Part shown: one piece after another, positions 33,395 through 53,125 of the stretch
How positions within the stretch are numbered: position 1 is the stretch's first letter
How the letters are laid out: every line of letters begins with the position of its first letter
Source of the DNA: Chitinophaga sancti
GTDB taxonomy: Bacteria; Bacteroidota; Bacteroidia; Chitinophagales; Chitinophagaceae
DNA length: 64,000 nucleotides
Direction: 5' to 3'
Assembly: GCF_034424315.1 (NCBI RefSeq)
Contig: NZ_CP139972.1
Coordinates: forward strand, 4,340,001-4,404,000
Translations under genes and position numbers: made by a program
Notes under the pieces: model-generated
Database searches by the model: none
What the model was told of the DNA's origin: nothing
Seen by the model: the letters and a program-made list of their open reading frames with translations, nothing else

Positions 33395-33655
33395 TTACAA
33401 TGATGGCGCTACTTTCTGATTTTCATATATACGATTTGGTCCTGGTACAGTGCAGAATAAGGTTTTCGAAAAAGCATTTATTGCATACTTCGTAGTGATC
33501 ACTGCAGCGAATATATGATCTGCCCCTACATCAATACCTACAGTAGTATAACATAAAAGGGTACCATTAAATCTGTGTTGGACTTTAAAGGCTAATGTAC
33601 CTCCCACAAGGCTTAAAAAGCCTATAGCACTGAGGATAATATTTGTTCTTTTCAT
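33395..33655 (-). CDS. small exported two-cysteine peptide, copy 1 (possible DUF6520-like)
   Basis: An 86-residue protein with a hydrophobic N-terminus MKRTNIILSAIGFLSLVGGT and then LAFKVQHRFNGTLLCYTTVG, a variable centre (IDVGADHIFAAVITTKYAIN), and the conserved end KTLFCTVPGPNRIYENQKV. The two cysteines (in LCYTT and LFCT) are kept in all copies and could form a disulfide in the periplasm. It is the only minus-strand copy. The short size, signal-like start and Bacteroidota context recall DUF6520 proteins, an assignment I cannot verify. The function is unknown. Confidence 0.7.
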   Translation of the reverse strand: MKRTNIILSAIGFLSLVGGTLAFKVQHRFNGTLLCYTTVGIDVGADHIFAAVITTKYAINAFSKTLFCTVPGPNRIYENQKVAPSL

Positions 33656-33870
33656 GGTGTAAATGTTTTTAAAAAAATCTAAATATTTTTAATTAATATC
33701 GACCTGAAAGTAGTGTGGTTAACTAAACCTCAGAATTTGATTTTGCTAATATTTATCGCGATAAAATCTTGATGCTCTAAAAATAAAAAAGAAAGAATAT
33801 TATGAACTAAATTTATGAATTAAGGAAATAGAATTGAATAGTAATATTCCCTCTGTAAATTTACTTACTT
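33656..33870 (-). promoter_or_regulatory. conserved leader of peptide copy 1
   Basis: Read on the minus strand, a promoter-like GTAAATTTAC lies at 33855-33864, about 200 bases before the ATG. A perfect 14-base palindrome TTTATCGCGATAAA lies at 33752-33765, and a GAGGTTTAGTTAACC block and CAGGTCGATATTAAT follow. The same order occurs before the copies at 39922 and 51965. Confidence 0.55.
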
Positions 33871-34094
33871 ATGTTTCAGAAGCATTTGGGATCAAGGAAT
33901 AAAATTTGTTTAATAAAGTTATTCTTAAAAAACTCCATTCAAATAGTTATACCGATATATGCTTCTTAGAAGTTAAACTTTCATAAATCTCTTTCTTTTG
34001 TGACAAATAAATAGATCAAAATAAAATTTAGGAAATCGATAAAGTAATGTGCATGTCCTCTCTGATTACTGAGTAAGTAACCTGGGGTTAATCC

Positions 34095-34289
34095 ATGAAA
34101 TATTTTACAGTAATTCTTTACAGCGATAAGGATGATATCTGCCGACATACAATATCACAACTTAAGGAACAAAAGATTCTTAAAACTGGCCACATAAGAG
34201 ATAGATCACAGGCTACCTGGGAGATGATGGAGGAATTTGAAGCGCTCTTTACTGATACAAAGGAGGCATTGCATGGATATAATGCTTAA
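34095..34289 (+). CDS. possible small hypothetical protein
   Basis: An ATG-initiated 64-codon frame: MKYFTVILYSDKDDICRHTI, SQLKEQKILKTGHIRDRSQA, TWEMMEEFEALFTDTKEAL. The composition is protein-like, with helical acidic segments, but I recognise no family. It may be the end of a decayed gene. The surrounding bases 33871-34094 and 34290-34609 hold nothing I can name. Confidence 0.3.
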   Translation: MKYFTVILYSDKDDICRHTISQLKEQKILKTGHIRDRSQATWEMMEEFEALFTDTKEALHGYNA

Positions 34290-34719
34290 GGTCGATAAAC
34301 CCAGATATGTTCATGATTAAATTCAATTGCTAAAAATGGTTATCAAAGATGTAATCCCAACATTACTATGGAGGCACTCTATGTGTAGCCAACATTGCAT
34401 TCATAGCGTTTCTGATTTTATGTCAATAGTACAAGGGCCGCTCCATAATCAATAACCTTTCACTGCGGCCATTAATGCTGGCTCCATCAATCCCTTAACT
34501 GTTTCTGTCCAGCCAAAAGCCAATACCGAACCAGGCAAAAGAAAACTTGTAGACTACGATATGATCTTTAAATAATCATAAGAAAAATCCTCAGTGCATA
34601 ACTATGGCTGACTAATAGTAAGCATACGATCTGGGGCGTCTTTTCAAAGTAATTTATAGATGCTACATTTGCACCCATACATCACCCATCACTAAGTTCT
34701 TTGATTATTTCTGGCCATC

Positions 34720-36513
34720 CTAAACAGCTGCTTTTCCTGCTGCTGCTGATTTCCAATTTGAAGGTAATAACTGTGTCAGTTCACTGGCTGTGCAGTCGTG
34801 GAGTCGATTATACACATCATTTAAGTATTCGAATGGATCAATCCGATTCAGCTTACAAGTTTCTACGAGAGAATAAAATAATGCAGCCCTTTCCCCACCA
34901 TGTTCATTACTAGCAAAAAGGGAGTTTTTCCTAAATAATGTAATTGGACGGATCGCGTTCTCAGTCGAGTTATTGTCAACGTCTATTCTTCCGTTTAAAA
35001 ATAATATATTCAGCTTATCCCACTGATTATTTGCATAAGTAATAGCTTTAGCCAACAGGCTATCAGGTACATGTTTATCCTTGTGTTCATCCAACCAGCT
35101 GCGGATCTTGTCAAAAAAAGGTTTACTATATTTCTGTCGTAATGCCAGTCGTTGGTCGGGAGTAAAATGTTTACGTTTAGCATACGCTTCTATACGGTAA
35201 ATGATATTAAAGTATACAAGCACCTGGTCTGCCAGTATTTTATTTTGTCGCTGAGCTTTTTTGAAGCCTCTGCGGATATGGGCCAGGCAGCTCATCAACG
35301 TAACTTTGTCGTTCTCTTTAAAAGCAGCTGTATAAGACGATAGCGCATCTGTTTGTAATATGCCTGCAAAGTCTTTCAGAATTTCTTTTGGTACATCATG
35401 AGCTCTGCCAGGATGAAATTCAAAGAGCACAAGCTTGTGTTCCGGTGCATGAAACACCCACATCCAACCATTGGCGGCTTTGCCCTGACCTTCGTCGTGA
35501 AGGTATTTTAGGGTAGTCTCATCGGCCTTAATGTAACTGGCCGTCTGTACAGTCTTCTTCAATAATTTTAATAATCGCTTCAGCTTTTTATAACAAACTT
35601 CCTCCCAGTGGTCGATTGTTGATGCTGCAAAACTAACGCCTGTCAGGCGCTCAAACCGCTGCTGCTGGCGATAGTATGGCATATAGTAAACAAAACGCTC
35701 ACTGTGCAGATGGGCAAGTAATTTGTTGCTTACAATTCCCCTTTCTATCATCCGTGGCTGGACAGGAGTGCAGTGGATCTTTCCATCTGCTGATTTATAT
35801 TGAAGGTGATGTTCTTCTTTTCTGATTAGTTTTCCGGGAATAATTTCGTAATAAACAGAGACCTTCTTCCCCATAGGCTTCATGCCTGTTTTGTCTCCGG
35901 GAAGATCATAAACAATGGTTTCTGTTTCCAGGTGAGTGGGGATGGGTCTTCTTCCTTTATGTGCTTTGTGACGCTTTTTTCTGCGGCTGGTTTTGGAAGT
36001 AGTGCCTGTTTGGGTATCTGTGATGGTCGAAGCTATTGTTTGTTCAATAATAGCTTCGACTTCGGTTTTATCAAATTCTTCTCCCAGGGTTTGCTGAATA
36101 GCTGTCTGTGTAGTTGCCGCGTCAGGAATAAATTTTTCACTACGCTGGCCAAATAACATCTCCTGCAGCTCTTTTAATTGCCAGTCTTTACGCTGTGCCT
36201 CATCTGTTTTGCCAGCAAGAGCGGTCTGCAGTTCTGCAATAGTTTCCTCCAGAGATGCAATCCTCCTATCTTTATCAATCCCACGTTCCTGCTCATTAGA
36301 TAACCAACGTTTCTGCTGGTCTTTTTCTTCTTTTAGCGCAGTATTCTCTGTTGTGAGCTCCTGAATAATGCGACTGAACACATGTCTTTCCTGGGTAAGT
36401 GCATTAGACAAATCTGCTTTCTGCAGTTGCAGCGCATTCACTTGTTCCAGTGCTTCAGACAATGTGTATATGATCTCAGGTTTCACTCGTCGCAAAGGTA
36501 ATATCGCGGACAT
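34720..36513 (-). CDS. tnpC: IS66 transposase (TnpC)
   Basis: A 597-residue protein with an ATG at 36511-36513. It has a coiled-coil N-terminus, LKELQEMLFGQRSEKF (IS66 leucine-zipper motif), a zinc-finger-like and basic segment (TSRRKKRHKAHKGRRP), and the DDE catalytic region: SYIKADETTLKYL, GILQTDALSSYTAAF, VDNNSTENAIRP (catalytic E). The length and motif order are normal for the family. Confidence 0.95.
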   Translation of the reverse strand: MSAILPLRRVKPEIIYTLSEALEQVNALQLQKADLSNALTQERHVFSRIIQELTTENTALKEEKDQQKRWLSNEQERGIDKDRRIASLEETIAELQTALAGKTDEAQRKDWQLKELQEMLFGQRSEKFIPDAATTQTAIQQTLGEEFDKTEVEAIIEQTIASTITDTQTGTTSKTSRRKKRHKAHKGRRPIPTHLETETIVYDLPGDKTGMKPMGKKVSVYYEIIPGKLIRKEEHHLQYKSADGKIHCTPVQPRMIERGIVSNKLLAHLHSERFVYYMPYYRQQQRFERLTGVSFAASTIDHWEEVCYKKLKRLLKLLKKTVQTASYIKADETTLKYLHDEGQGKAANGWMWVFHAPEHKLVLFEFHPGRAHDVPKEILKDFAGILQTDALSSYTAAFKENDKVTLMSCLAHIRRGFKKAQRQNKILADQVLVYFNIIYRIEAYAKRKHFTPDQRLALRQKYSKPFFDKIRSWLDEHKDKHVPDSLLAKAITYANNQWDKLNILFLNGRIDVDNNSTENAIRPITLFRKNSLFASNEHGGERAALFYSLVETCKLNRIDPFEYLNDVYNRLHDCTASELTQLLPSNWKSAAAGKAAV

Positions 36514-36554
36514 TCATACCCAAGTATTTATGATTTATTCTGATAAAATATTTA

Positions 36555-36914
36555 TCAGCTTTTATGATATCTGCCTGATCGTTCATAACGTTTGCGGAAT
36601 CTCACTTCTACTCCTTCCAATATTAGTAAAAGATCCTTCTTTTCTAACACCATCATCTTAGTTTCAATGTTGTATATAGGTGTACCAAAAGTACCTCTTG
36701 ACAATCTTTTATAAAATATGCCGAAGCCGTCTCCATCCCAGCCAAGAATCTTAACCTGCGTGCGACGGTGATTGAAAAACGCATAGAGGGTACCATACTG
36801 AAAAGGGTCTTCTTTTATCTCATTTACAACAATACCAGACAGGCCGTTAAAACTTAAGCGCATATCCGTGTTGCTGTTCCATAATACCAGGCGATAACCA
36901 GTTAGTGATAACAT
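36555..36914 (-). CDS. tnpB: IS66 accessory protein TnpB (IS66 Orf2-like)
   Basis: A 119-residue protein with an ATG at 36912-36914, one base after the TnpA stop. It shows the family pattern DMRLSFNGLSGIVVNEIKED, then FFNHRRTQVKILGWDGDGFG and YKRLSRGTF. It is required for transposition by many IS66 elements. Confidence 0.95.
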   Translation of the reverse strand: MLSLTGYRLVLWNSNTDMRLSFNGLSGIVVNEIKEDPFQYGTLYAFFNHRRTQVKILGWDGDGFGIFYKRLSRGTFGTPIYNIETKMMVLEKKDLLLILEGVEVRFRKRYERSGRYHKS

Positions 36915-36915
36915 A

Positions 36916-37731: not shown

Positions 37732-39213
37732 TTAATTATAACTGATCTTATCAGTTGATCTTGTAAAAAACGATATTGAAAAAACTTCCATAAAAAATAT
37801 AAAATATTCATATCTAATAACTATCGGTCCTGAGAACACCCCAAAGAAAAAATTAAGTATCCAAACGGCAAATATTAGGTAAATAAGGGTTTGAATTTTA
37901 TAATTAAATTCTCTATTCTTCTTTAGTATAATAAAACTTACTGAGGTTAAAATAAACAAGATATGAGAAATGCTAAATAACAATGAGAAAAGATAAAACT
38001 GACTAATAATATTATCACCGGGTAACGAATCTGCACTATTTTTTTTATATTTTATAAATTTCCCAATGATAGTTAAATCTTCACTAGTTGAAGGATTATA
38101 AGCGCTAAATTTTTTATTATCAAAAATTTCACAATTAGGTGACCAGTATTTAATAAAATTGGGGAAAACTACAAAATTCACGAATTCAATAGGATGACTT
38201 TTTATCAGGTAATAACCGTATCTTTTATATAGTGGAGACAAAACTGCAAACTTTTTAAAATCGACGGGAGCACCATATTTAGAATATAAATATTGTTTTA
38301 ATGGAGAATAAAAAGAAAAGATGAAGAAGATTCCTCCTTCTGTTTCTTCTTTTAATTTTTTTTGATGAGAATAGTAATAGTTATTAACGAAATAATTTAA
38401 TTGTGTAAACTCTTGGGGAATAGTTTCTTTCTTTTCTTGGAAAAAAATGTTTTGGTACATATAAAGTGCATCATTTGCAACCTTCCAACTACTCATAGGT
38501 GAAAATAAACTCACTCCAGCTACTTTCCTTGTCTCCATACGAGTGTATTCAACAAAAATAAACAATAAAAAATATTGAATAAATAAACTTAATAATTTCC
38601 ACTTTACTTTAAATGGACTTAAGATGATTGCCAGTGTGCTAATAATAGGGAAAAATAGAGAATTGTACCTAAGTGAAAACAATATTAATAAAAGAATTGA
38701 TTGAATAATTGTTATCCATTTGGAGCAACCGTAGATAATTCTTAATAATTGGACAAACCAAATTAAACTTAAACCGGTAAATAAAATATCAGATAAGATA
38801 AAATTTGATGTAACTATAAATAACGGATTTAAACATGTAATTGCAAACAATATATAGCTTAGTGGTTTACCTAATCCCAAAACCTGCCTTAGTGTTATAA
38901 AAAAATATAAAAATGAAAATTGGGAAAAGAAAAATTGAACGGATACTATTAAGTAAGGTGATTTTGAAATTGCACCCATCATTAATATAAATTTTGAATA
39001 CCCAATTGGCCTGAAACTTACATTAATATCTTTGCTTGCATCTCTTAAGTATTGATAAGAATCATAGGCAAAAAAAGGATTAGGGAAATAATATTTAAAA
39101 ATCAACCAAATAATTAAAGAACTAACTACCCCAAGAATAAGGAAATCCTTATTTTTTTTAATGGACAAATAAAAATCCTGATCTAATTTTTCTCTTACAG
39201 AATAATTCACCAT
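37732..39213 (-). CDS. multi-pass membrane protein, GT-C-like family, paralogue 3
   Basis: A 493-residue protein with an ATG at 39211-39213. Family motifs: YDSYQYLRDASKD, RPIGYSKFI, CLNPLFIVTSNFILSD, LRYNSLFFP, FSPMSSWKVANDALYMY, YGYYLIKSHPIEFVNFVVFP and GPIVIRYEYF. It is more AT-rich than paralogues 1 and 2. It stands alone between the IS66 element and the first plus-strand peptide gene. Non-coding stretches of about 420 (37311-37731) and 500 bases (39214-39703) on either side show no gene, apart from a repeated 48-base fragment at 39510. Confidence 0.7.
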   Translation of the reverse strand: MVNYSVREKLDQDFYLSIKKNKDFLILGVVSSLIIWLIFKYYFPNPFFAYDSYQYLRDASKDINVSFRPIGYSKFILMMGAISKSPYLIVSVQFFFSQFSFLYFFITLRQVLGLGKPLSYILFAITCLNPLFIVTSNFILSDILFTGLSLIWFVQLLRIIYGCSKWITIIQSILLLILFSLRYNSLFFPIISTLAIILSPFKVKWKLLSLFIQYFLLFIFVEYTRMETRKVAGVSLFSPMSSWKVANDALYMYQNIFFQEKKETIPQEFTQLNYFVNNYYYSHQKKLKEETEGGIFFIFSFYSPLKQYLYSKYGAPVDFKKFAVLSPLYKRYGYYLIKSHPIEFVNFVVFPNFIKYWSPNCEIFDNKKFSAYNPSTSEDLTIIGKFIKYKKNSADSLPGDNIISQFYLFSLLFSISHILFILTSVSFIILKKNREFNYKIQTLIYLIFAVWILNFFFGVFSGPIVIRYEYFIFFMEVFSISFFTRSTDKISYN

Positions 39214-39509: not shown

Positions 39510-39557
39510 ATATTTATTGATAAGGTATAGTCTCAAATTGACATTGAGATCCATCCT
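39510..39557 (+). repeat. copy of a repeated coding fragment (partner at 46529-46575)
   Basis: The 21 bases at 39531-39551 are identical to 46550-46570, and flanking bases are similar over about 45. At both sites the same frame gives SQIDIEI, so the source was probably coding. The gene family is not recognised. Confidence 0.5.
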
Positions 39558-39703
39558 AAATTATGATTGATATTCTTACAAAATAGCATCCTGGTTATAG
39601 AAGCTAAAGAAATTATTATTTATTCAAATCTGATCAAACCAGGTCTATATTTTTCAATAAACTATCTTAATAAGACAAGTTTTATTATCTCAATCCTAAA
39701 TAT

Positions 39704-39921
39704 TCTCAAAACATTAATAGGCATATTTACAATGAAAAAGCATTAAAATATTAATTAAATTCTTTAATTCAGGATTCAATATTTATTATTTCTCTTTTGC
39801 AATCAAAAATATTCTATCGCGATAAAGTTTACATACGTTCGTCGTAGGTTCGGTTAGCGAATCTCATTTCATGTAGATTCTAATAACTTAAATTTAGCTT
39901 TTTCATAAAATATTTAATACC
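39704..39921 (+). promoter_or_regulatory. conserved leader of peptide copy 2
   Basis: The promoter-like block CATATTTACAATG starts at 39722, 190 bases before the ATG. The palindrome TATCGCGATA lies at 39815-39824, and the block ATTTAGCTTTTTCATAAAA runs into the ATG. The same elements in the same order precede other peptide copies. Confidence 0.55.
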
Positions 39922-40185
39922 ATGAAAAAAGTAAATATTATTCTTAGCCTTATTGCCTTAATAAGCTTTATTGGCGGAGCATTAGCTTTTAAAACCCAAC
40001 ACAGATTTAATGGTGCGCTCCGGTGTTACACTACTGTTGGTACCATGATTGGTGGTATTACTGTATTTGCTGCAATACCACCAAGTGTAAGATATTCACC
40101 AACGAATCCAACGGGCACATTATTCTGTAGCATTCCTGGCCCGAATGTTACTTATAAACCCGTAAAAGTCTCATTAGCTCAATAA
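39922..40185 (+). CDS. small exported two-cysteine peptide, copy 2
   Basis: An 87-residue protein: hydrophobic MKKVNIILSLIALISFIGGA, then LAFKTQHRFNGALRCYTTVG, a variable centre TMIGGITVFAAIPPSVRYSP and the conserved TGTLFCSIPGPNVTY. The cysteines are kept. It heads a plus-strand row of three copies (39922, 40628 and the broken one at 41.1/43 kb), spaced by about 450 bases with separate leaders, so each is probably its own transcript. Confidence 0.7.
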   Translation: MKKVNIILSLIALISFIGGALAFKTQHRFNGALRCYTTVGTMIGGITVFAAIPPSVRYSPTNPTGTLFCSIPGPNVTYKPVKVSLAQ

Positions 40186-40627: not shown

Positions 40628-40891
40628 ATGAAAAAGACAAATATTATTCTTAGTGCGATTTCTTTATTAAGCGCTATCGGAGGATTACTGGCATTTAAAG
40701 CCCAACAAAGATTTAATGGTGTTCTCTTTTGTTATACTACTATTGGTAGGCTCAGTGCTCAAGGCGATCCCTTTTACGATGCAGTACTAACTACAAGGTA
40801 TACATTAATAGATCCAGTGAAAACATTATTTTGTACCATTCCTGCAGCAAATACTAATTATAGGCCAATGAAAGTCAAACCATTATTATAA
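40628..40891 (+). CDS. small exported two-cysteine peptide, copy 3
   Basis: An 87-residue protein: MKKTNIILSAISLLSAIGG, LAFKAQQRFNGVLFCYTTIG, a variable centre (RLSAQGDPFYDAVLTTRYTL) and KTLFCTIPAANTNY. Its leader keeps only the near part: a half palindrome at about 40518-40530 and ATATTAATAACATAAATTTA before the ATG. It follows copy 2 in the same orientation. Confidence 0.7.
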   Translation: MKKTNIILSAISLLSAIGGLLAFKAQQRFNGVLFCYTTIGRLSAQGDPFYDAVLTTRYTLIDPVKTLFCTIPAANTNYRPMKVKPLL

Positions 40892-41100: not shown

Positions 41101-41223
41101 CTTTATTATTTACACACTTAGTGAAATAGTTCTATTAGCTATTAAAGCTCAACATAGATTTAATGGTGTCTTCTTTTGCTTATACTACTGTTGGACCCTT
41201 GGTCCTAGTGGTGATCCTATTTA
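41101..41223 (+). pseudogene. small two-cysteine peptide, copy 4, 5' fragment before the IS
   Basis: The bases code for KAQHRFNGVFFC, then a one-base insertion shifts the frame before YTTVG. The signal-peptide part upstream is decayed beyond a usable start. The 3' part lies after the IS1182-like element at 42944. The site of insertion is TATTTA. Confidence 0.75.
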
Positions 41224-42943
41224 GGGTCTGCTGAATAAGTTCCCGATCTGTTATTTTTCATTTTTACACCGAATCGATTTACCCTTCTTAATGTCTCAGA
41301 TACCGGGATATAAATTGTGTATCGGATCTATTCCCCATTGTGGTCAAATAGCCCTCCTTTACCAGCCAGTAATAGATCTGCAGTACTGACAACAAAGAAC
41401 CTGCTGCCAGTTTAAGCAGATTCATAACAAAGTATATAGACATCACCCAACTCTCAGCTGTATCCTTGAGGCGGGCCTTGATTTTGCCCAGTCCATATGC
41501 ATTTTTCCCCTGTCCAAACTTCCCTTCGATCGCATTTCGTTCCGGCATCTCCTTTTGCAATAATCGCTTTTGCTCCTTACTATTTGATGAGGGCCGACCC
41601 AATGGCTTGCCCACATAACGGATCCCTTTTCCACTCATGAATCGTCTGTTTTCACGTGTGCCGAACAACTGATCTCCCAATACACGCTCTGGATAGCACC
41701 CAAACAAGCGTTTATATGTTTCAAGGCTTTCGGTCAACAATGAACCTTCATTGTAATTATCCCAGCTCAGTTTTTCTATATGGGTGTAGCCATCTTTCAA
41801 CATCACCAGTTGTTTGCTGCCAAACTCAGTTGATACACGGTCTTTACCTCTCGGTATTGGACGTACATGCGGTTGATAGATACTTACAATCCGATCCGAT
41901 ATTTTATGCTCTCTATTCTTATACATCTCTGCCTGCTGACGATACATTTCCTGGATCACCCGTATTAACCTCCAGTCTTTCATTTTCAGCACCCCCTTGA
42001 AATTAGCTTCTGATTCTATCAGCCAGTTGATGTACTTTAAATCTCGTTTAACATATTGTAATTGCTGTCGGATACCTCTGCGTATATCTCGTTTGCTTTT
42101 GTTCTTTTTTTTGGCAATGTTCAAATATTGCTTCCTCGCTATTCTCCGATACATGCGCGGCATCACCAGTTCTGCTACCTGACATCCCCGCTCTATCATC
42201 CTTTCCAATTGACGGCGACCCTCATTTAATAATTTGATATCTGTTGGATATTCGATCTGTTGCTCTGACACTGTCGCATCTAACATGACTGTTCCTGATA
42301 GCCCATCAGATGACTTTCCTTTTACGCTCTCTGTATGCTCATTCAAGACATTGTTATTACTCTTTCCACCATTCCCATCCTGATCATCCTCACTGCGGGT
42401 ATCCGCTGTTTTCTCTTCATTCGCTTTGATTAGTCCGGCTTCCTGCAAAATAATCTCATTCAATCTGGACATCACATCTATGCCTAATCTTTTTCTAATA
42501 CTGACCATCAATGATGCATCAAAGGGAGCCTCCTGTTGAAAACTGCTTAAGCCTACAAAATATTGCAGATATATATTTTCCGTGATCTGCTCTACTACCT
42601 CCCGATCATCTATGTTAAGTATATGTTTGATGATCACTGCACCTATTACCATCCGGGCACTCAATGTTGGAGCACCGAAATCTGCCCGCATTTTTTTATA
42701 ATACACGTCCGCCAGTTTGTCCCACGGAATCTTTGCAGCTAGTATAACCCATCGGTTTGTAGTGGATAATTGCTGCGAAAAAGGAGTTGAAAATCCTTCT
42801 AAGGTTAACTGTTTTGCAGGAGTGTAACGTATCATTGCTGCATGATTTTGAAGATGAATCTTTCAATATACAAACACTTCTACAGCAAAAAACAAGCCAC
42901 ATCATATTGATTAACAATGTTTTATTACTATATCAGCAGACCC
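41224..42943 (-). mobile_element. IS1182/IS5-like element inserted in a peptide gene
   Basis: The element is 1720 bp. The left end GGGTCTGCTGAATAA and the reverse complement of the right end GGGTCTGCTGATATA are the inverted repeats. An exact 6-bp target duplication TATTTA lies at 41218-41223 and 42944-42949. It carries one intact transposase gene. It interrupts a peptide copy that was already frameshifted. Confidence 0.9.
41288..42835 (-). CDS. IS1182/IS5-like transposase (DDE, DUF772 N-terminus)
   Basis: A 515-residue protein with an ATG at 42833-42835. The N-terminal DUF772-type region includes YYKKMRADFGAPTLSARMVI, GAVIIKHILNIDDREVVEQI and FDASLMVSIRKRLG. The DDE core follows with SGTVMLDATVSEQQIEYP (D), a later VLGDQLFGTRENRRF (D) and ERNAIEGKFGQGKNAYGLGK (E). 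The gene is intact and of normal length. Confidence 0.9.
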   Translation of the reverse strand: MIRYTPAKQLTLEGFSTPFSQQLSTTNRWVILAAKIPWDKLADVYYKKMRADFGAPTLSARMVIGAVIIKHILNIDDREVVEQITENIYLQYFVGLSSFQQEAPFDASLMVSIRKRLGIDVMSRLNEIILQEAGLIKANEEKTADTRSEDDQDGNGGKSNNNVLNEHTESVKGKSSDGLSGTVMLDATVSEQQIEYPTDIKLLNEGRRQLERMIERGCQVAELVMPRMYRRIARKQYLNIAKKKNKSKRDIRRGIRQQLQYVKRDLKYINWLIESEANFKGVLKMKDWRLIRVIQEMYRQQAEMYKNREHKISDRIVSIYQPHVRPIPRGKDRVSTEFGSKQLVMLKDGYTHIEKLSWDNYNEGSLLTESLETYKRLFGCYPERVLGDQLFGTRENRRFMSGKGIRYVGKPLGRPSSNSKEQKRLLQKEMPERNAIEGKFGQGKNAYGLGKIKARLKDTAESWVMSIYFVMNLLKLAAGSLLSVLQIYYWLVKEGYLTTMGNRSDTQFISRYLRH

Positions 42944-43064
42944 TATTTACTCAGCAATACTAAATGCAAGTTATACGGTAACAGGCGCGGCAGGTACATT
43001 ATTCTGCTCAGTTCCAAGTCCAAATATTACTTATAAACCATTGAGAGTCGGATTAGCAAAATAA
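42944..43064 (+). pseudogene. small two-cysteine peptide, copy 4, 3' fragment after the IS
   Basis: After the duplicated TATTTA the frame reads YSAILNASYTVTGAAG, then TLFCSVPSPNITYKPLRVGL and AK before TAA at 43062-43064. Joined to the 5' part, its centre would be GPLGPSGDPIYSAILNASYT, different from all other copies. The next bases, 43065-43257, hold nothing recognisable. Confidence 0.75.
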
Positions 43065-44671: not shown

Positions 44672-44920
44672 ATGAAAAAAGCAAATATTATTTTCAGTAC
44701 GATTAGTTTATTAAGCGTTATTGGAGGTGCATTAGCATTTAAGTCTCAACACAGATTTAATGGTGTCCTCTTATGTTATACTACTTTGGGTGACGGAAAT
44801 AAATACGCTGCAATAGTTGCTACCAGATACACATTTAGTAACCCAACGGGTACACTATTTTGCACCATTCCTGGACCAGCTGTTACTTATCGTTTATCAA
44901 AAGTTGCTGTAGCCTTTTAA
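44672..44920 (+). CDS. small exported two-cysteine peptide, copy 5
   Basis: An 82-residue protein, the shortest copy: MKKANIIFSTISLLSVIGGA, LAFKSQHRFNGVLLCYTTLG, a short centre DGNKYAAIVATRYTF and TGTLFCTIPGPAVTYRLSKV. Both cysteines are kept. It lies between two IS3 remnants. Confidence 0.7.
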   Translation: MKKANIIFSTISLLSVIGGALAFKSQHRFNGVLLCYTTLGDGNKYAAIVATRYTFSNPTGTLFCTIPGPAVTYRLSKVAVAF

Positions 44921-45626: not shown

Positions 45627-46733
45627 GATAAAATCAGAATGAGCAGGATAAATTATAATTTAGCTATAACAAATTAGAAATTTGGATATTAAAAGGCATA
45701 GTCAAATTACTTGCTGTTGATACATATTTCAGAAATAGAACTTCATAGTTCCAATTCTGAAAGAGGGTCTATAAATTTTGCCAAAGATGACGGCTGATGC
45801 CAATCTTTGTTATTTATTTAATGGGGGAAATTCTCCGAGGCAAGAAAAACTAATAATGAAGATTAGCTTATTGTCACAATATTGATAAAATTAGAATCAA
45901 AATTTTGACGTAGATGATGAAGAGGTTATTTACGATGGCATTGTTTGGCCGGACATTCCTGAACAATAGGGTTGAATAGTAAATATTCAACTAAAAATAA
46001 CTGATAAATATATGAATATTTTTGTGTAGGGATACCAAACTCTAACCCACGCTAATATTAAACTACTATCAGTTTCGATTCCAAATCGAATTGCTATCCG
46101 TAATACCAAACAATTTGCCGGATTAAAAGAATACCAAGCAAAAGCAAGAAAGTATTCTTTCATTTTAATATGGACTCTACCACCATCTGCCTGGCTAGGG
46201 CTTTTTTGGGGTTAAAAATTACCCGCGAATAAGGAATAGACATTTTTATGAGAAATATCAAAAAGGCTTAGTATAGCCTGTATTTAATAGATCGGATTTT
46301 CTCAAACTTTTCACTGGATATGAATTCTAATAAATATGTAATCTCCATCGAAAACGCTTGGATATAAGAAACCTGGCAGAAAAGGAAGTAGGACGAAATG
46401 AGTATCAGATACGAAGCTCTCAAAACTAGTATAAGAATATGGCGATGGTTAAATTAGGCCAGCTATTCATGAACACTCAGAAACTTCTTTGCTATGAAGA
46501 AGAGGTTGAGGGTAACAACTTAAGATATCACTCTATTGATAACATCTATTCTCAAATTGACATTGAGATCAACCTGATATATATTGAACGACATTATTGC
46601 GAAATGGCCACCACATTATAAAAAATGAAAAATTACTATTTATCAGAATCTGATAAAATTAAGTAAATAATTATTAACAAAACAGGCATATCCAAATAAT
46701 AATCATACTAAATAATTTAGACTTATCTGGTAA
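45627..46733. other. gene-poor stretch with coding debris
   Basis: No intact gene is visible. At about 46155-46220 the plus strand reads MDSTTICLARAFLG, which resembles the DSTT motif of IS4-type DDE transposases. At 46439-46621 a 60-codon frame includes HSIDNIYSQIDIEINLIYIE, the second copy of the fragment seen at 39510. I regard the whole stretch as decayed mobile and accessory DNA. Confidence 0.35.
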
Positions 46734-48218
46734 TCATAATACCCCTATAATTAAAAAAGAGAAAACATTGCTCATTTGAACCGGAAACAATACATGCCGC
46801 ATTTGAATTGGGGATGCAAACACATTAAAGCAAAAATTAATTATCCAGAAAAAAGTTATAAACATCACCACCCTGTTCAAATTAGAAGGATTGTTTCTCC
46901 ATTTAAAAATAAAGTAATATAAAACAGACAATAGAAAAATTATATAAACAACGCATGCCCATAGAGGGTACAACCTGATAATACCTTCAAAAATATATGG
47001 ATCTTTCACTCTTGTTGTTAGCATGACCGATTTATATTTAAACCATTGAGCAATAAGCTCCGGCACATTGATAGCGCCGCCATTATAACTATCAATCATT
47101 TCCATTGGTGGTATAAACCATTTCTTTACATTAGGCCAAATGACATATTCAATAAATTGTACCGGATAGTGGAGAATAAGCCAGGCCCCGTATTCAGCAT
47201 AAAGAGGCCCCACGACGGCTCCTGTTTTTAGATCAGACTCGCCTTCTTTCAGAGTAGTCTGTTGCAGGCAATAAATCCATAAAGGAGATTCCTGCATAAA
47301 CATGTAATCATATGTAGCCTTTCCATTGTCTATTCTATTATTAGAATCTTTGTTTGCATAATAAAAATAGTTTCTTACCATAGCATCCAGCTTATCAAAT
47401 TTATTCGGAACTTTTACCCGAGATTCAACAGGTACATGCCTATATGCATATAATCCGTTATTGGCCATTTGCCACCCTGAAAAAACAGAAAACTGTCTCT
47501 TCCCACTAATCTCAAAATACTTCTCGCGGTTATAGATCACAAAACTTAGCATGAGAGAAGAAAATAAGAAAACTCCTACGATCTTTAACCTTAATTGTTC
47601 TTTTGATTGAAAAAAAGCAAATAAACTAATGAAAGGATAAAACAAAGCATTAAAACGTACCGTCAATAAAAAAAACAAAATAATTGCATGCCAAAATATA
47701 ACCGTCTTAGTTGGCCTATATATAATCCAGATTAATAGGTTAATCCAAATCACACTTAAAGACAAAAAAAGATTATCACTGGAAACTGTATTTGCAATAA
47801 CAAAAAGCAAGGGGTTAAAAAGCGTCATAATTATTAAAAGTCGCTTCAAATATTTATGTGGATTAAAAAAATAAAATAACGTATATAACAGAGATATTGC
47901 AGCACCCTGCACCAGGAAATACTGGAAAACAACCAGGCATGTGTCTGAAACTGTTAATGCGCTAAAGAATCTCAGAAACATAGGGTATCCAATAGGATAG
48001 TTAGCAATTTGAGCATTATCGAAGGCTTCTTTTATATAGCAATATGAATCTCCAATTAAAAAATTAGCATAGGGATATAAATATTTATAAATTATTAACT
48101 GTAAAACAATAACAATTACCGAAATTATCAGATAGAATCTATTTTCCGGAAATTTCAATATATAATCCTTTAAGGACGTTGATGCCGGGAAATTGTTATC
48201 AATGAGAGGATTAGACAT
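46734..48218 (-). CDS. multi-pass membrane protein, GT-C-like family, paralogue 4
   Basis: I start it at the ATG at 48216-48218 (MSNPLIDNNF, 494 residues); an ATG at 48242 and a GTG at 48254 are also in frame. Family motifs: GDSYCYIKEAFDN, YPIGYPMFLR, FNPLLFVIANTVSSD, VRFNALFYP, FSGWQMANNGLYAY, YGAWLILHYPVQFIEYVIWP and ASPIQMRHVLFP. It ends close to decayed DNA and starts about 250 bases past the GH2 end, in the same direction but probably in a separate unit because a hairpin lies between them. Confidence 0.7.
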   Translation of the reverse strand: MSNPLIDNNFPASTSLKDYILKFPENRFYLIISVIVIVLQLIIYKYLYPYANFLIGDSYCYIKEAFDNAQIANYPIGYPMFLRFFSALTVSDTCLVVFQYFLVQGAAISLLYTLFYFFNPHKYLKRLLIIMTLFNPLLFVIANTVSSDNLFLSLSVIWINLLIWIIYRPTKTVIFWHAIILFFLLTVRFNALFYPFISLFAFFQSKEQLRLKIVGVFLFSSLMLSFVIYNREKYFEISGKRQFSVFSGWQMANNGLYAYRHVPVESRVKVPNKFDKLDAMVRNYFYYANKDSNNRIDNGKATYDYMFMQESPLWIYCLQQTTLKEGESDLKTGAVVGPLYAEYGAWLILHYPVQFIEYVIWPNVKKWFIPPMEMIDSYNGGAINVPELIAQWFKYKSVMLTTRVKDPYIFEGIIRLYPLWACVVYIIFLLSVLYYFIFKWRNNPSNLNRVVMFITFFWIINFCFNVFASPIQMRHVLFPVQMSNVFSFLIIGVL

Positions 48219-48465
48219 ACCAAGAGACGTTAGATAATACATTAATGCAGCCACGTCTATATCATAGTTATAGATTTAAATGACTGTATGAACTACTATT
48301 ATCAATTTACAACCTCGATCAATATTAAACTTTGGATACATGGATTTTCCTAACTTCCCTTTACCTACAAACCAATTAGCGTTATATATTGAAAAGTAGC
48401 AATTTTATAATAAGGAAGGGAGTACAAGCAGTATTTAGTTATTTACACATGTGGTATGAATAAAA

Positions 48466-48489
48466 GCAGGCCTCATTTCAGAGACCTGC
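48466..48489. terminator. hairpin terminator of the GH2 gene
   Basis: GCAGGCCTC and GAGACCTGC pair with one mismatch around a six-base loop, 27 bases beyond the GH2 stop on the minus strand. Confidence 0.65.
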
Positions 48490-48515
48490 CCTATATAAAA
48501 CGACGAACGAATACC

Positions 48516-50879
48516 TTAATTTTTCTTTGCCTGATCTAATGCATTTTGGAACATACTTTTTTCATCACCTTTAATATAATCACCATACTTATTCAGGTAT
48601 GCAGTAGCTGCAGGCACATACATCGCCCAGTCTTTTGCATTCAATGCGACAACTGTCTTCATTCTCAAAAACATTTCATCTCCAGGGGCACCATGTTCCT
48701 TCATCACGGATTCTATCTCCTTCCAATCTTTATGTTGCTTCATCATCGGCTCCATCACACCTTTATAGACCATGTTCATCATATTCACCTGGTACTGCCT
48801 TTCTCCTAATACCTTCTTAAACTGCTCCGAATGTTGACTCATAATAATATAGCCCGCATCTTTTGAGCTCCTGGCAAATTGTCCTACAATTCTAATATCA
48901 TCCTCCGTCAATGGACCACTCAAGCCAGCGATATAAGCATTCCCCGCCATATCAGCTCCTGGCAGGTCACCAACCTGCTTCGCTGTCATAGCCAACTTCA
49001 GGAGGAAGTCATGATCTCTCTTCCCATTTATATACACTTCCAACATCCTTGAATACAATTCTGCAGGCTCCGTTAAATCAGCATTTTGCGCTACTACAGT
49101 GGGAATAGTACCTATAGAAGGATTAAGGGGGGCATGAATCTTTCTCAGTTTATCAAAGGGAATCTTCACTACTTCTCTATCATAGGTCATCAATCCGTTT
49201 TGCTCTCCTTCTACATCAAAAGGCTGTGTATAAATAGAAGCACTTAAGCCATCCTGATGAAGCAATCTCAGGTGTTGAGCCATGATTGCAAACTTACTCT
49301 CCAAAGCTGCTGGCTTTTCCTGTATATAGCCCCAGGCATTTATGGGATTCCATTGATGATCAGGGATAAATACGCCAATACCACCAAACTCTCCTACTAC
49401 TCTTACCATTTCATTTTGTGCCGGCGCATTCATTGGATTAGGATAGGAGTGAACATCTACGATATCACTTGCTACCCAATTATCTTTTCCTGACTTAATC
49501 TCATCTCCATTAATAAAAATATATTCACCTGTATGCCCATTTACCAAGCGGCCTGGATCTGTTTGTTTCACCCATTTCGTAAGTCTCTCCTGATCATAAC
49601 TGCCCCACTGCTCATTAAATAGCACCCAGGTCACAATACTTGGGGCATTATGTAACTGCTCCAGAATCTCCTTACTTTCTTTCTCAAACTCAGGCTTTGC
49701 GCCTTCCGGCAAACTCTGATTAGGATTTACAAAATCCTGCCAAACCAGCATACCAATCTTATCTGCATGATAATACCATCGGGCTGGATCTATTTGTATA
49801 TGTTTATGAATTGTATTAAAACCCATTGCCTTGATAGCCTCAATATCGAATTTCAGTGCCTCATCCGTAGGAGCTGTATACAAACCATCTGGCCAAAAAC
49901 CCTGATCCAAGGTTCCCAGGTTAAAGTAAGGTTTGTTGTTTAGGAAGATCCTTGTCACCCCCTTCTCATCCTTGCCCAGAGAAATCTTCCTCATTCCAAA
50001 ATAACTCTTCACTTCATCCCCCTTCATCTTAACCACCAAATCATACAAAAAGGGATTTTCTGGCGACCACAACTTCGCATCTTTCACAGGTATTGAGAAT
50101 ACTATCCCTGCCTTTCCTTTCACTTTGCCCACAACATTTCCTCTATCGAGCGCAGTGACCTCCACTGCATTTCCTGCAGGAGCATTTACCTTTACTTCCA
50201 GCACCCCTTTGTCAATATCCGGTGTCAGAACCAATCCTTCAATATAAGTCTTCGGCACTGACTCTAGCCATACCGTCTGCCAAATGCCAGAAGAGGATGT
50301 ATAATAAATACTGGCAGGATGCAGGACTTGCTTACCATGAGGTCCAATACCTTCATCTGTTGGATCATATACTTTTACAACCAAAACATTATCCCCCGTC
50401 TTAAGTACATTTGTAATATCCAGCGTAAAAGCCTCATACCCTCCACTATGGCGACCTACTTCTTTCCCATTTACAAATATAGTCGCCTGAAAATCTACAG
50501 CACCAAAATGTAGTAATACTTTCTCACCTTCCGGTTTTGCAATCGTTTTCCTATACCAGAGTAATTGGTCTGGCTGCAATGATTTCTTCACACCAGACAA
50601 TGCTGATTCTATCGGATAAGGCACCAGGATCTTACCTTCCCAGGTATCAGGTATGCTTCCATTCTTAGGTGTAATAGCATACTCCCAGAGACCATTCAGG
50701 TTCTGCCATTTGTCTCTTACCATCTGCGGGCGGGGGTATTCCTTTAATGCATTGTTGGGTGATACTTCTTTTGCCCATCGGGTCTGAATGGTTACCGGTT
50801 GCATTTTGTATACATCCTGCGCCTCTGCATGGAAGATGAAGAGGGAACTAAAAGCCACAATTGAAAATAAGCTTTTCAT
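48516..50879 (-). CDS. glycoside hydrolase family 2 enzyme (beta-galactosidase/glucuronidase-like), exported
   Basis: A 787-residue protein with an ATG at 50877-50879 and a signal peptide MKSLFSIVAFSSLFIFHAEA cut before QD. Domains in order: sugar-binding jelly roll (about 50-210, with NLNGLWEYAI and WYRKTI), immunoglobulin-like sandwich (about 210-300), TIM barrel (about 310-600) with acid/base Glu423 in VLFNEQWGS and nucleophile Glu497 in VVGEFGG. About 170 helical residues of unknown role follow. It acts in the periplasm or at the surface on beta-linked glycans. The 3' end has a partial copy at 43258-43332. The upstream stretch 50880-51128 shows no gene. Confidence 0.9.
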   Translation of the reverse strand: MKSLFSIVAFSSLFIFHAEAQDVYKMQPVTIQTRWAKEVSPNNALKEYPRPQMVRDKWQNLNGLWEYAITPKNGSIPDTWEGKILVPYPIESALSGVKKSLQPDQLLWYRKTIAKPEGEKVLLHFGAVDFQATIFVNGKEVGRHSGGYEAFTLDITNVLKTGDNVLVVKVYDPTDEGIGPHGKQVLHPASIYYTSSSGIWQTVWLESVPKTYIEGLVLTPDIDKGVLEVKVNAPAGNAVEVTALDRGNVVGKVKGKAGIVFSIPVKDAKLWSPENPFLYDLVVKMKGDEVKSYFGMRKISLGKDEKGVTRIFLNNKPYFNLGTLDQGFWPDGLYTAPTDEALKFDIEAIKAMGFNTIHKHIQIDPARWYYHADKIGMLVWQDFVNPNQSLPEGAKPEFEKESKEILEQLHNAPSIVTWVLFNEQWGSYDQERLTKWVKQTDPGRLVNGHTGEYIFINGDEIKSGKDNWVASDIVDVHSYPNPMNAPAQNEMVRVVGEFGGIGVFIPDHQWNPINAWGYIQEKPAALESKFAIMAQHLRLLHQDGLSASIYTQPFDVEGEQNGLMTYDREVVKIPFDKLRKIHAPLNPSIGTIPTVVAQNADLTEPAELYSRMLEVYINGKRDHDFLLKLAMTAKQVGDLPGADMAGNAYIAGLSGPLTEDDIRIVGQFARSSKDAGYIIMSQHSEQFKKVLGERQYQVNMMNMVYKGVMEPMMKQHKDWKEIESVMKEHGAPGDEMFLRMKTVVALNAKDWAMYVPAATAYLNKYGDYIKGDEKSMFQNALDQAKKN

Positions 50880-51128
50880 AAACTGCTTGTCAAGTTTGGG
50901 ATCTTAAATAATTTAGTAAATAAATATATCGGGTTGGCAATTCACATTTAATGTTACCAAGCCAGTATTATTAATTATATAGTTGCAAAAAGAGGGAAAT
51001 TCTAACATTCTGGAAGAATACTCATTTTTTATATTACGCTTTGCTCACTATCGCAATAAGAAAGAAAATATTTTAGCCCCAGCCCTGTGATCCATTAAAA
51101 GCATACAGATCCCCCAAATGCTCAACGT

Positions 51129-51168
51129 AAAAAGGAGCGGTAACACTTTGGTGTTGCTGTCTCCTTTT
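51129..51168. terminator. long hairpin, related to the one at 8194
   Basis: AAAAGGAGCGGTAACAC and GTGTTGCTGTCTCCTTTT form a long stem with one bulge. The preceding ATGCTCAACGTAAAA is identical to the bases before the 8194 hairpin, so the two are related by descent although no matching gene lies beside this one. Confidence 0.7.
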
Positions 51169-51259
51169 CCTTCTTTATAAGAAGTCTATCTTTTTATTAT
51201 TGAACATACCACGATCTTTATTATACAAGCCAAAAGCAACTTGCAAAATTTCAACAACA

Positions 51260-51437
51260 ATGAGCCAGGTAAATAGTTGATAACATTGAGGTTAACGATG
51301 TTCTATCCGAATTTTATGAATTAAATAAAATTATTAGAGATTATTATGATTTAGACAAGAATAATATAAAACATCCGGAAGAGCAACTGAAATTTAGTAA
51401 GGTTATGTGTAAATTAAGACTTTCTCTTAGACAATAA
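51260..51437 (+). pseudogene. small frameshifted gene of unknown family
   Basis: The ATG at 51260 opens MSQVN, then one extra base shifts the frame; the rest reads VDNIEVNDVLSEFYELNKII, then RDYYDLDKNNIKHPEEQLKF and SKVMCKLRLSLRQ before TAA. It would be about 58 residues, acidic and helical. The next small frame starts 3 bases later. No family is recognised. Confidence 0.45.
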
Positions 51438-51440
51438 TTA

Positions 51441-51632
51441 ATGCTACTTGATAGAACTCTAAATATTTACGAATTTAAAGCTCAGTTCGATGATTATTAC
51501 CATTTTGAATTTATTGATCTGAATGAATTATTAACCATGTACCTATTTTCTAGAGCGGCTTTACCATTCTTAAACTATAAAAACGAGGTTAATCTTCATG
51601 TTTTTCTCCCTGGACCTACATATACTGGATAA
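51441..51632 (+). CDS. possible small hypothetical protein
   Basis: A 63-residue frame from an ATG: MLLDRTLNIYEFKAQFDDYY, HFEFIDLNELLTMYLFSRAA, LPFLNYKNEV. The composition is protein-like. It directly follows the frameshifted small gene at 51260 and may have formed a pair with it. No family is recognised. Confidence 0.4.
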   Translation: MLLDRTLNIYEFKAQFDDYYHFEFIDLNELLTMYLFSRAALPFLNYKNEVNLHVFLPGPTYTG

Positions 51633-51730
51633 TACTTGCAAACAACCAGCAGATTATAAAAAGTTTAATAAATTCTAAATTTATTAAAATATGACAAAAT
51701 CCAAGTTAAGCAAGTTTTATTATTCCAATC

Positions 51731-51964
51731 CTAAATGCTCGCAAAATAAAATAGATACATTTACAATGTGAAAGCATTAAAATAGATTCCAACATTTCAA
51801 TTAAGACATTGTCTTGTTAATTATTTCTCTTCTACTGTTAAAATAAGAACTTATCGCAATAAAAGTTAACAAAATCTATTACCCTGCGGTTTAGTTGACT
51901 ACTTTTATTTCAGGCAGATATTAACAATATAATTTTAGCTTTTTTCAAAAAAGCATCTAATACC
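51731..51964 (+). promoter_or_regulatory. conserved leader of peptide copy 6
   Basis: TACATTTACAATG starts at 51756, 201 bases before the ATG. TTATCGCAATAA (one change from the palindrome) lies at 51851-51862. TTTCAGGCAGATATTAACAA and TTTTAGCTTTTTTCAAAAAA lead to the ATG. Confidence 0.55.
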
Positions 51965-52219
51965 ATGAAAAAAGTAAATATTATTCTCAGTGTTATTGGT
52001 TTATTAAGCATTATTGGCGGTACATTAGCGTTTAAATCTCAACACAGATTTGGTGGTACCCTTTTTTGTTATACTACTATTGGAACTGGGATTGATAATT
52101 CTTTCACTCCGATATTAGTTACACGGTATACAACAGTAAACCCACACGGAACATTATTCTGTACCGTTCCAGGAGCAAATGTTTTCTACCATCCATTACG
52201 AGTTACAGCAGCCTTATAA
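51965..52219 (+). CDS. small exported two-cysteine peptide, copy 6
   Basis: An 84-residue protein: MKKVNIILSVIGLLSIIGGT, LAFKSQHRFGGTLFCYTTIG, centre TGIDNSFTPILVTRYTTVN and HGTLFCTVPGANVFY. Both cysteines are kept. It pairs with copy 7 some 650 bases downstream. Confidence 0.7.
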   Translation: MKKVNIILSVIGLLSIIGGTLAFKSQHRFGGTLFCYTTIGTGIDNSFTPILVTRYTTVNPHGTLFCTVPGANVFYHPLRVTAAL

Positions 52220-52630
52220 CTAAAAATCAACTTTAATTAAAACATAGAATTATATGACTCGTTAAACCAAAAGTATTAATCGAAAACCAGAATGAATACC
52301 TTAAACGAATGATTATTTGGATGTAGCAGGAGTTAAAGCGAACAAAATTAAGGCGCTGGATTTTATGGGGTGAGTATAAGGCTTAATATCCCGATGGCTA
52401 TGCATAGACGATTTTGAGAGTATTATCATGAATGGTAAGAACATTTTGTTTATTGAAATAGGCACTGTTATTAATTTCTAAACTAGAAATAATTAGCCCT
52501 ATTTCAAGGAGTACCAAACTATTTATTTTAGCATTGTAATATTTATAAAACTTGACCTTTTTATAATTAACTAAACTGCTGATTTATTTTCAAAATAATT
52601 ATTCCCTTTAATCAAGTATTATCGTCTTAA

Positions 52631-52864
52631 TTCAAACATTTCCACAACATACATAGGTTCATTTGCAATAAAAAAGCACCTAAATCGGATTCGATATTGT
52701 TATTCCAGAAAAATATAATATTTAAAATATTTCCATTTTCTTGTTAAAATCTATCGCTATTTTATTATTATAAAGGGGAAAATAATCTTCATTAGGGTAA
52801 CTAATATCAATTTAGATAAATATTAATACTACAAATCTATCCTTTTCAAAAAAAACTTAATACC
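52631..52864 (+). promoter_or_regulatory. conserved leader of peptide copy 7
   Basis: TTCATTTGCAATA at 52658 is closest of all copies to a Bacteroidota -7 box and lies 199 bases before the ATG. The palindrome is reduced to CTATCGCTAT at 52751-52760. The stretch 52220-52630 shows no gene. Confidence 0.5.
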
Positions 52865-53125
52865 ATGAAAAGATCAAATATTATTCTAACAGCTATAGGT
52901 TTAATAAGCTTATTAGTAGGCACATTAGCATTTAAAGCTCAACACAGATTTAGTGGTGCACTTTTTTGCTACACAACTGTTGGCATCCCTTCACCTGGTG
53001 GTATAACTTATGCACCTATATTAGTTGAAAGGTACAGTGCAATGTCCTCCGGAAACACTTTAATATGCACAATTCCTGGCGTAAATGTAACATATCATGA
53101 GATAAAAGTTATACAATCTTTGTAA
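52865..53125 (+). CDS. small exported two-cysteine peptide, copy 7
   Basis: An 86-residue protein: MKRSNIILTAIGLISLLVGT, LAFKAQHRFSGALFCYTTVG, centre IPSPGGITYAPILVERYSAM and NTLICTIPGVNVTY. Both cysteines are kept although the second sits in LICT rather than LFCT. An IS256 remnant follows. Confidence 0.7.
   Translation: MKRSNIILTAIGLISLLVGTLAFKAQHRFSGALFCYTTVGIPSPGGITYAPILVERYSAMSSGNTLICTIPGVNVTYHEIKVIQSL

Follow-up and report, generated by a model that had tools for sequence, protein, structure and literature searches.

What is a family of small exported-looking peptides, constant at both ends and different in the middle of every copy, doing in a single island of a Chitinophaga genome? The question is raised by a 64,000-nucleotide stretch of Chitinophaga sancti (hereafter the window: bases 4340001–4404000 of a single 8.42-Mb contig), in which a preliminary description had located seven copies of such a family. 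Our analysis suggests, with a probability that we put at about one half, that the copies are a lineage-specific expansion of Chitinophaga exported precursor peptides, which would be closed into a disulfide loop, matured and trimmed by the products of a cassette, and whose variable loop would be the specific part. The anatomy on which this reading builds is solid, and the whole arrangement points to an undescribed secreted-peptide system. What is new here is the genus-wide association of the peptide genes with S9 peptidases, thioredoxin-fold proteins, SusC/SusD and a GT-C-like membrane protein family.

All seven places put forward in the preliminary description carry the family, as six full copies and one copy broken by an insertion sequence (IS) (Table 1). 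When one copy was used as query, eleven places of the genome, including itself, were matched at an expectation value (E) of at most 0.01, all between 4373398 and 4518830; the other copies were matched at E 5e-26 to 2e-19 in the 8.42-Mb genome, so the family likeness is not due to chance. With a profile the broken copy was recovered as well, in two pieces (E 1e-9 and 0.002), together with a single weak match at 4301873 that looks like chance. Only seven copies had been counted because the window stops at 4404000: five more lie beyond it (4455095, 4458280, 4502570, 4518147 and 4518576), the one at 4458280 losing its end to an IS-like reading frame, and the genome thus has twelve copies in all, ten of them full, one cut and one broken, inside 145 kb. 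The insert in the broken copy is flanked on both sides by the 8 bases CCTATTTA, as expected of a target duplication. This copy has decayed beyond the insertion itself, since its front piece has neither start nor signal and runs out of frame near CYTT.

The growth of the island can be read from its flanks. The genes for a flavin adenine dinucleotide (FAD)-dependent amine-oxidase-like protein and a GT2 glycosyltransferase are 87.8% and 84.1% identical between the window and the sister genome G031, where the interval between them is 4.6 kb and contains one GT-C-like gene, one gene for a 393-amino-acid protein (acyltransferase-like by eye) and one peptide gene; the same interval of the window is 30.5 kb and contains six full peptide copies, one broken copy and four GT-C-like genes. 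A tree of the 14 close members of the family (11 from this genome and three from G031) has a sole supported branch, which joins 4518147 with 4518576.

The constant/variable/constant design claimed for the family is borne out by comparisons among paralogues and with other species. Across 13 close members (10 from this genome and three from G031, the IS-cut copy L011 being excluded), mean pairwise amino acid identity is 0.68 in the signal, 0.77 in the N block (residues 24–40) and 0.75 in the C block (residues 65–72), against 0.29 in the centre (residues 41–64). The last 14 or so residues, the tail, are a second variable part (0.36) that the preliminary description did not include. Difference at first and second codon positions follows the same division (signal 0.18, N block 0.13, centre 0.52, C block 0.16, tail 0.47), whereas four-fold degenerate third positions differ by 0.56, 0.46, 0.46, 0.61 and 0.48 in the same five regions. 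Because silent sites are about equally and strongly diverged throughout while the ends are held, the copies appear to be old paralogues with constrained ends, not recently shuffled ones; an origin of the constant ends by recent duplication or gene conversion was rejected, since their four-fold sites are no less different than those of the centre. None of this shows positive selection on the centre, given that silent sites approach saturation and that this part aligns poorly. That the centre differs in each copy holds true, though the adjacent copies 4518147 and 4518576 have much of it in common (ITPNFQI).

Copies in the window share a DNA repeat of 192–196 bases, which begins about 73–80 bases 5' of the start codon and ends at the N-block codons for CYTT; upstream likeness extends farther, but is weaker. 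The idea that these are phase-varying surface peptides did not hold up: each copy has its own leader, no repeats that would fit phase variation or cassette shuffling occur in 33000–54000, and the two long inverted repeats found there are simply the gene copy in antiparallel orientation. Variation by a diversity-generating retroelement is argued against by the changes in length and by the divergence at third positions, for which no reverse-transcriptase or template-repeat search was made.

The features expected of an exported, disulfide-bonded peptide are conserved as well. Both cysteines, described earlier as invariant, occur in 14/14 close members; each member has exactly two, 28–33 residues apart, and because they bracket that many residues the variable centre would sit inside a possible disulfide loop. 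The signal-like start also stands, with a maximal mean hydropathy of 2.0–2.5 in 14/14, and hydropathy and residue criteria predict in every member a cleavage point directly after Ala, with position –3 taken by a small or aliphatic residue, so that n-region, hydrophobic core and an A-x-A-like predicted site, as for Sec export, can be recognised by sequence in all 14. A double glycine before the proposed cleavage site is changed to VG or GA in 3/14; for this reason, and since the leader is a hydrophobic signal, it is not a strict double-glycine (GG) leader.

Wider sampling of the genus gave the same picture of paired cysteines. Cysteines are even in number in 70 of 73 scored peptides (two in 52 of them, four in 10, six in three and none in five), and the other three peptides have three, one of these odd-count peptides carrying its extra cysteine within the signal; among the 68 with at least two cysteines, 65 are even. 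The scoring covers 73 of 75 peptides, two having been dropped where the start rule failed (one of them with three cysteines by eye). Open reading frames (ORFs) of 60–150 amino acids from the same loci, which are mechanical calls and in many cases surely not genes, have 123 even and 72 odd counts. The pairing expected of a disulfide-bonded exported peptide is thereby present at the sequence level. The mature part is rich in Thr (13.8% in 13 close members and 21.3% in 21 distant ones, compared with 5.6% in island ORFs of more than 250 amino acids) and low in Asp and Glu, and its net charge is +1 to +6 in 13/13.

The family name DUF6520, offered tentatively in the preliminary description, was a correct lead. 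None of the six window copies reaches the Pfam cut-off of 25.4 bits, and two match at 14.9 and 15.2 bits over positions 1–27 and 1–28, the signal region; in the wider family, 6/33 members reach E ≤ 0.01 against it. The peptides are thus distantly related to Pfam DUF6520 (PF20130), whose members in this genus are likewise small and exported-looking and start with a signal resembling theirs, and into which the wider peptide family shades; the window copies are set apart by lying below its cut-off, with their weak matches limited to the signal. NCBIfam returned a single chance-like match, and profile searches of Pfam and NCBIfam placed the copies in no housekeeping family, whereas membership of such a family would have undone the preliminary description. 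With a narrow profile 12/59 genomes were positive (this one included), all in the genus, and close members occurred in G031 alone; a wider profile, whose matches we call A5 peptides, found 139 places in 26/36 genus genomes at E ≤ 0.01. Across the order, 4/298 genomes were positive at E ≤ 1e-4, three of the genus (this one included) and one of another genus in the family, in a scan that scored at most 17 candidates per genome and can miss weak cases. The family therefore appears almost restricted to Chitinophaga. Pfam DUF6520 itself was found in 36/60 genus genomes at E ≤ 0.01, in 24 of them above its cut-off. Viral contigs contained no confirmed relative of the peptides and plasmids none of the one copy used as query, so a reading as viral or plasmid cargo was rejected. 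Nothing convincing was found among solved structures by sequence (best E 1.4 for the peptides and 0.11 for the GT-C-like proteins), PADLOC gave no match for one peptide copy, one GT-C-like protein and an S9 protein, and the papers searched yielded nothing naming DUF6520 or NVEALA.

The gene neighbourhood is part of the functional argument. We compared 50 peptide loci, picked by peptide matches only (two overlap slightly), with 20 control stretches; 82 peptide clusters are listed outside this genome. After mechanical ORF calling and BLAST grouping, the main group of peptides was recovered in 38/50 loci. Partner names are profile matches of single representatives, with SusC, SusD, FecI and FecR named from sequence without a profile. 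An S9 prolyl-oligopeptidase was present in 45/50 peptide loci and a 448-amino-acid thioredoxin-domain protein in 25/50, a GT-C-like protein (as a separate protein or as a fusion with the FAD protein) in 22/50, an AraC-type regulator and a TlpA-type protein in 17/50 each, and MauE in 5/50; none of these occurred in the 20 controls. SusD was found in 24/50 loci versus 3/20 controls, SusC in 17/50 versus 3/20, FecI in 16/50 versus 2/20 and FecR in 11/50 versus 1/20. The recurring order is FAD/GT-C, sometimes MauE, then TlpA and peptide on one strand, opposed by S9, the thioredoxin protein, SusD and SusC on the other; many loci carry just part of it. For 29/75 peptides the next downstream gene is S9 on the opposite strand. 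In 9/9 rows of the S9 proteins Ser697, which lies within GxSxG, is retained along with Asp782 and His816, as would be expected of an active prolyl oligopeptidase with its Ser/Asp/His triad.

Scans of whole genomes agree with the locus comparison, although the S9, GT-C-like and MauE profile seeds came largely from peptide loci, which favours the scan counts and from which the 50-locus test is free. An S9 gene lies within 3.5 kb of 77/123 peptides outside genomes G000 and G031 (0.7 expected under random placing), and a GT-C-like gene within 10 kb of 73/139 peptides (2.1 expected). Of 36 genus genomes, 24 have both peptide and GT-C-like genes, eight have neither and four have one alone (Fisher 6e-5), and the two copy numbers correlate (Spearman 0.81). 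MauE is within 3.5 kb of 15/139 A5 peptides, the nearest in this genome being 5.7 kb away; this genome also has a Pfam-DUF6520 gene beside MauE at contig positions 4794573–4795262.

The GT-C-like genes have multiplied together with the peptides. The island has 17 paralogues of about 500 amino acids, those outside the window lying at contig positions 4406529–4513993, and the genome has 19, the highest number among 36 scanned (0 to 12 in the 35 other genus genomes). Searches of Pfam and NCBIfam gave no family for the proteins tested (six with Pfam). A structure model of the protein encoded at 37732–39213 (predicted local distance difference test [pLDDT] 84, predicted template-modelling score [pTM] 0.87) retrieved with Foldseek, at ranks 1–23, entries that by their titles are GT-C enzymes or complexes holding one; AftB, EmbB, Pmt4, PglB, ALG9, ArnT and oligosaccharyltransferase complexes are among the best PDB matches. 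Conservation of Asp51, which belongs to a DSYxYI motif, is 90% or higher over 23 rows, and an aspartate in the first outer loop is a criterion for GT-C enzymes. From the model we conclude with fair confidence that the island paralogues would have a GT-C fold. Relatives carry the FAD protein and a GT-C-like domain as one fused frame of 1036–1059 amino acids (L053, L054, L058 and L059).

Three kinds of leader element accompany peptide genes of the genus. A 14-bp palindrome, TTTATCGCGATAAA, lies 98–115 bases ahead of the start with 0–2 mismatches in 7/11 island copies and 1/3 G031 copies; the best match before any of the 17 GT-C-like genes has four mismatches. At no more than one mismatch it occurs at six places of the genome, four of them in the peptide island, and at no more than two mismatches at four places in the window versus 0.36 expected, the fourth, at 55380, not being beside a peptide. 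Elsewhere, five places were found in 763 kb of peptide loci (one in G031) and none in 260 kb of controls. The second element, a hairpin immediately 5' of the start codon, is common to island and genus peptides. A perfect stem of at least five pairs was present in 31/37 selected leaders, with four different arm pairs (compensatory changes), compared with a mean of 15.4 and a maximum of 22 in 500 trials of an arm-swap control. The 37 leaders were chosen from 87 by a correctly placed TTTA anchor, except L095, which was added by eye, and leaders without the anchor or with it elsewhere (window copies 44672 and 52865) were omitted, so the proportion is not a frequency for all leaders. Within the window the hairpin is intact only before copies 40628 and 51965. 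A TCTGC/GCAGA pairing farther up in island leaders was inconsistent on inspection by eye. Downstream of the genes, an A/T-rich palindrome directly follows copy 52865 (window 53170–53213), and GGTTACC...GGTAACC hairpins, terminator-like by eye, follow several copies.

The third element, the Rfam RNA DUF805b (RF02914), precedes peptides in other species: six loci gave nine matches, all but one of the loci having at least one, and five of the six had been picked because the motif was visible there. The window leaders gave no match to a known RNA up to E=1 in 33000–54000. DUF805b is a broader leader in this genus: it matched in 36/36 genomes, 32 of them above cut-off, and of the best 150 sites listed 36 are at A5 peptides, eight have just a Pfam DUF6520 gene next to them, 11 have just MauE and 95 lie elsewhere. 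Twenty stretches from the last two groups were read and their downstream ORFs named by eye. They comprised GG-leader-like peptides in 4/20 (L134, L136, L147 and L150), small exported-looking DUF6520-like peptides in 3/20 (L135, L139 and L152, that of L135 without a Pfam match), proteins of about 165–225 amino acids in 8/20 (L137, L138, L141, L142, L144, L145, L146 and L149), a lipoprotein-like protein in 1/20 and, farther down, ribosomal-protein-like ORFs, presumably S10, in 4/20 (L133, L140, L143 and L148), three of which have multiple matches. In view of these mixed targets DUF805b was dropped as a bacteriocin marker. At L135 and L152 the small peptide is followed by a protein of 355–360 amino acids with a hydrophobic start, for which the L135 copy had no Pfam or NCBIfam match.

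From this neighbourhood and from the chemistry of the peptides we infer the following mechanism. The precursor would exit through Sec and be cut after ALA; one disulfide, at about Cys35 to Cys68, would form, assisted by TlpA, the thioredoxin protein and MauE; many of the Thr residues may be glycosylated by the GT-C enzyme; and the peptide would be trimmed by the S9 peptidase. The constant parts could serve export and recognition by this common machinery, leaving the disulfide-bounded variable loop as the part that would meet an outside partner. In the island of this genome the peptide and GT-C-like genes have been multiplied, and most peptide copies have the palindrome in the promoter region. 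The end product would most likely be a secreted or surface-held peptide with partner-specific loops.

Several observations weigh against this expansion of looped precursor peptides. The strongest, against a simple cassette, is that the window copies have neither an S9 gene nearby nor DUF805b, the hairpin also being missing from several: in this genome 0/11 peptides have S9 within 10 kb (the nearest is 23.7 kb away), no DUF805b match occurs in the island, and the hairpin is absent or broken in 4/6 window copies (two measured, two by eye). As S9 and DUF805b are missing nearby and the hairpin is lost in 4/6, the island branch either has left the common arrangement or is decaying. The enrichment of SusC and SusD is modest, and a variable centre is also what relaxed constraint would give. 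An AlphaFold2 model of the peptide was unusable (pLDDT 56, pTM 0.28). On the side of the GT-C-like family, the best Foldseek E is 4.6e-3, none reaching 0.001, the best template-modelling score is 0.45, and the link to the peptides may reflect no more than shared location in an island of surface-glycan genes that is plastic. O-glycosylation in Bacteroidota has a D-S/T motif, which must be rare in the peptides because Asp makes up only 1.4% of mature residues.

Among the alternatives, the one that survives best, though we still hold it to be unlikely, is a secreted antagonist or pheromone, in which a cationic disulfide-bonded peptide would act on the same or near species and loop variation would reflect target or receptor specificity, like that of class II bacteriocins and peptide pheromones. 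The small size, exported look, positive charge in 13/13, even cysteines, copy-number variation and lineage restriction would all fit, and DUF805b also precedes GG-leader-like peptides, one of them in this genome beside a grasp-with-spasm maturase above its cut-off (L134). However, no immunity-like gene stands out among families present in at least 5/50 loci (ORFs of at least 60 amino acids only), the double glycine is not invariant, and the leader RNA also stands before the proteins of about 165–225 amino acids and the ribosomal-protein-like ORFs. Bacteriocin and GG-leader precursors share with the peptides their small size, positive charge, conserved leader and variable core; the peptides differ by a Sec-type hydrophobic signal, and no C39 transporter or maturase was recognised by eye among families in at least 5/50 loci, where no targeted profile search was made.

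Somewhat less probable is that the peptide is an accessory part of an uptake system of S9, SusC, SusD and thioredoxin proteins, as an envelope subunit, chaperone or sensor whose centre varies since only its ends are needed. The frequency of S9 at peptide loci, and of the thioredoxin protein, SusD and SusC in the facing operon, is what such a role would predict. Against it, the genome of the window has 11 peptides and three S9 genes, none close, and Pfam-DUF6520 relatives lie within 2 kb of MauE in 27/54 cases, 26 of these 27 without S9 within 10 kb. We give still less credence to a dedicated envelope maturation route for ribosomal peptides in its full form, in which the Sec-exported, disulfide-looped peptides would be O-glycosylated on Thr by their own GT-C enzymes, trimmed by S9 and then displayed or released as a set with diversified loops for cell–cell recognition, with SusC/SusD as the receiving gate. 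Very improbable, finally, is IS-driven duplication under weak selection, by which recombination between IS copies would have multiplied an island of surface genes whose copies were kept by chance: the transposase-like ORFs (read as such by eye) are the largest paralogue group of the region with 20 members, two copies are cut by IS and the leader hairpin is lost in some, but the ends are conserved as protein although four-fold sites differ by 46–61%, ten reading frames are full length and the palindrome is kept at no more than two mismatches in 7/11 copies.

The peptides recall several known systems, with differences in each case. Loci of SusCD, thioredoxin and peptidase are a common type in Bacteroidota, and the peptide loci resemble them in having SusC, SusD, the thioredoxin protein and S9 in one gene run, often with FecI/FecR or AraC; here, however, this run faces a convergent one of GT-C, TlpA and peptides variable in number and loop. 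The classical partner of MauE is methylamine dehydrogenase. Redox proteins of the MauE/TlpA type (PF07291; AhpC-TSA, PF00578) adjoin genes for Cys-bearing exported-looking peptides in our loci too, but in combination with GT-C and S9 genes. In conotoxin-like precursors the signal is more conserved than the mature loop and the Cys frame is kept; our peptides likewise have a conserved signal, a variable loop and a kept Cys frame, an analogy that implies no common ancestry. An uncharacterised exported-peptide family thus gains a testable genus-wide context, with S9, GT-C-like and MauE/TlpA proteins, regulators and leader elements as candidate partners, and the island offers about ten natural loop variants on a constant frame. 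DUF805b RNA gains a gene set for testing its role. If the peptides were glycosylated and trimmed, they would represent a new route to secreted peptides in Bacteroidota.

Table 1. Features of the peptide island in the window (window coordinates)
Feature	Position	Strand	Remark
AraC-type regulator	25897..26811	+	AraC-type genes in 17/50 peptide loci
GT-C-like polytopic membrane protein, island paralogue	26814..28304	-	
GT-C-like polytopic membrane protein, island paralogue	28249..29682	-	
FAD-dependent amine-oxidase-like protein	29712..31391	-	relatives fused to GT-C-like domain
Exported peptide copy	33395..33655	-	86 amino acids, Cys35/Cys68
14-bp palindrome	33752..33765	.	upstream of copy 33395
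GT-C-like polytopic membrane protein	37732..39213	-	structure-modelled
14-bp palindrome, 1 mismatch	39813..39826	.	upstream of copy 39922
Exported peptide copy	39922..40185	+	87 amino acids, Cys35/Cys69
Leader hairpin GCTTTT/AAAAGC adjoining start codon	40597..40627	+	before copy 40628
Exported peptide copy	40628..40891	+	87 amino acids, Cys35/Cys69
Broken copy, front piece	41126..41182	+	without start and signal; frame lost near CYTT
Transposase-like ORF, 515 amino acids, IS between the broken-copy pieces	41288..42835	-	read from sequence, no profile run
Broken copy, rear piece	42924..43055	+	profile match
Exported peptide copy	44672..44920	+	82 amino acids, Cys35/Cys64
GT-C-like polytopic membrane protein, island paralogue	46734..48254	-	
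14-bp palindrome, 2 mismatches	51850..51863	.	upstream of copy 51965
Leader hairpin GCTTTT/AAAAGC adjoining start codon	51934..51964	+	before copy 51965
Exported peptide copy	51965..52219	+	84 amino acids, Cys35/Cys66
Exported peptide copy	52865..53125	+	86 amino acids, Cys35/Cys68
GT-C-like polytopic membrane protein, island paralogue	53800..55374	+	
GT-C-like polytopic membrane protein, island paralogue	56961..58505	+	
GT2 glycosyltransferase	61869..62684	+	best NCBIfam matches AglJ and PgfS, below cut-off

Three further observations concern the surroundings of these genes. A tRNA-Lys (CTT) gene on the minus strand at window 25351–25427, shortly ahead of the first island genes, is a possible insertion site. 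Near the island edge, window 17076–20096 (minus strand) encodes TOTE-type archaeo-eukaryotic primase and helicase domains (Pfam AEP-TOTE), a predicted conflict system. A 37-base direct repeat, 89% alike, occurs at window 39515–39551 and 46534–46570, near two GT-C-like genes.

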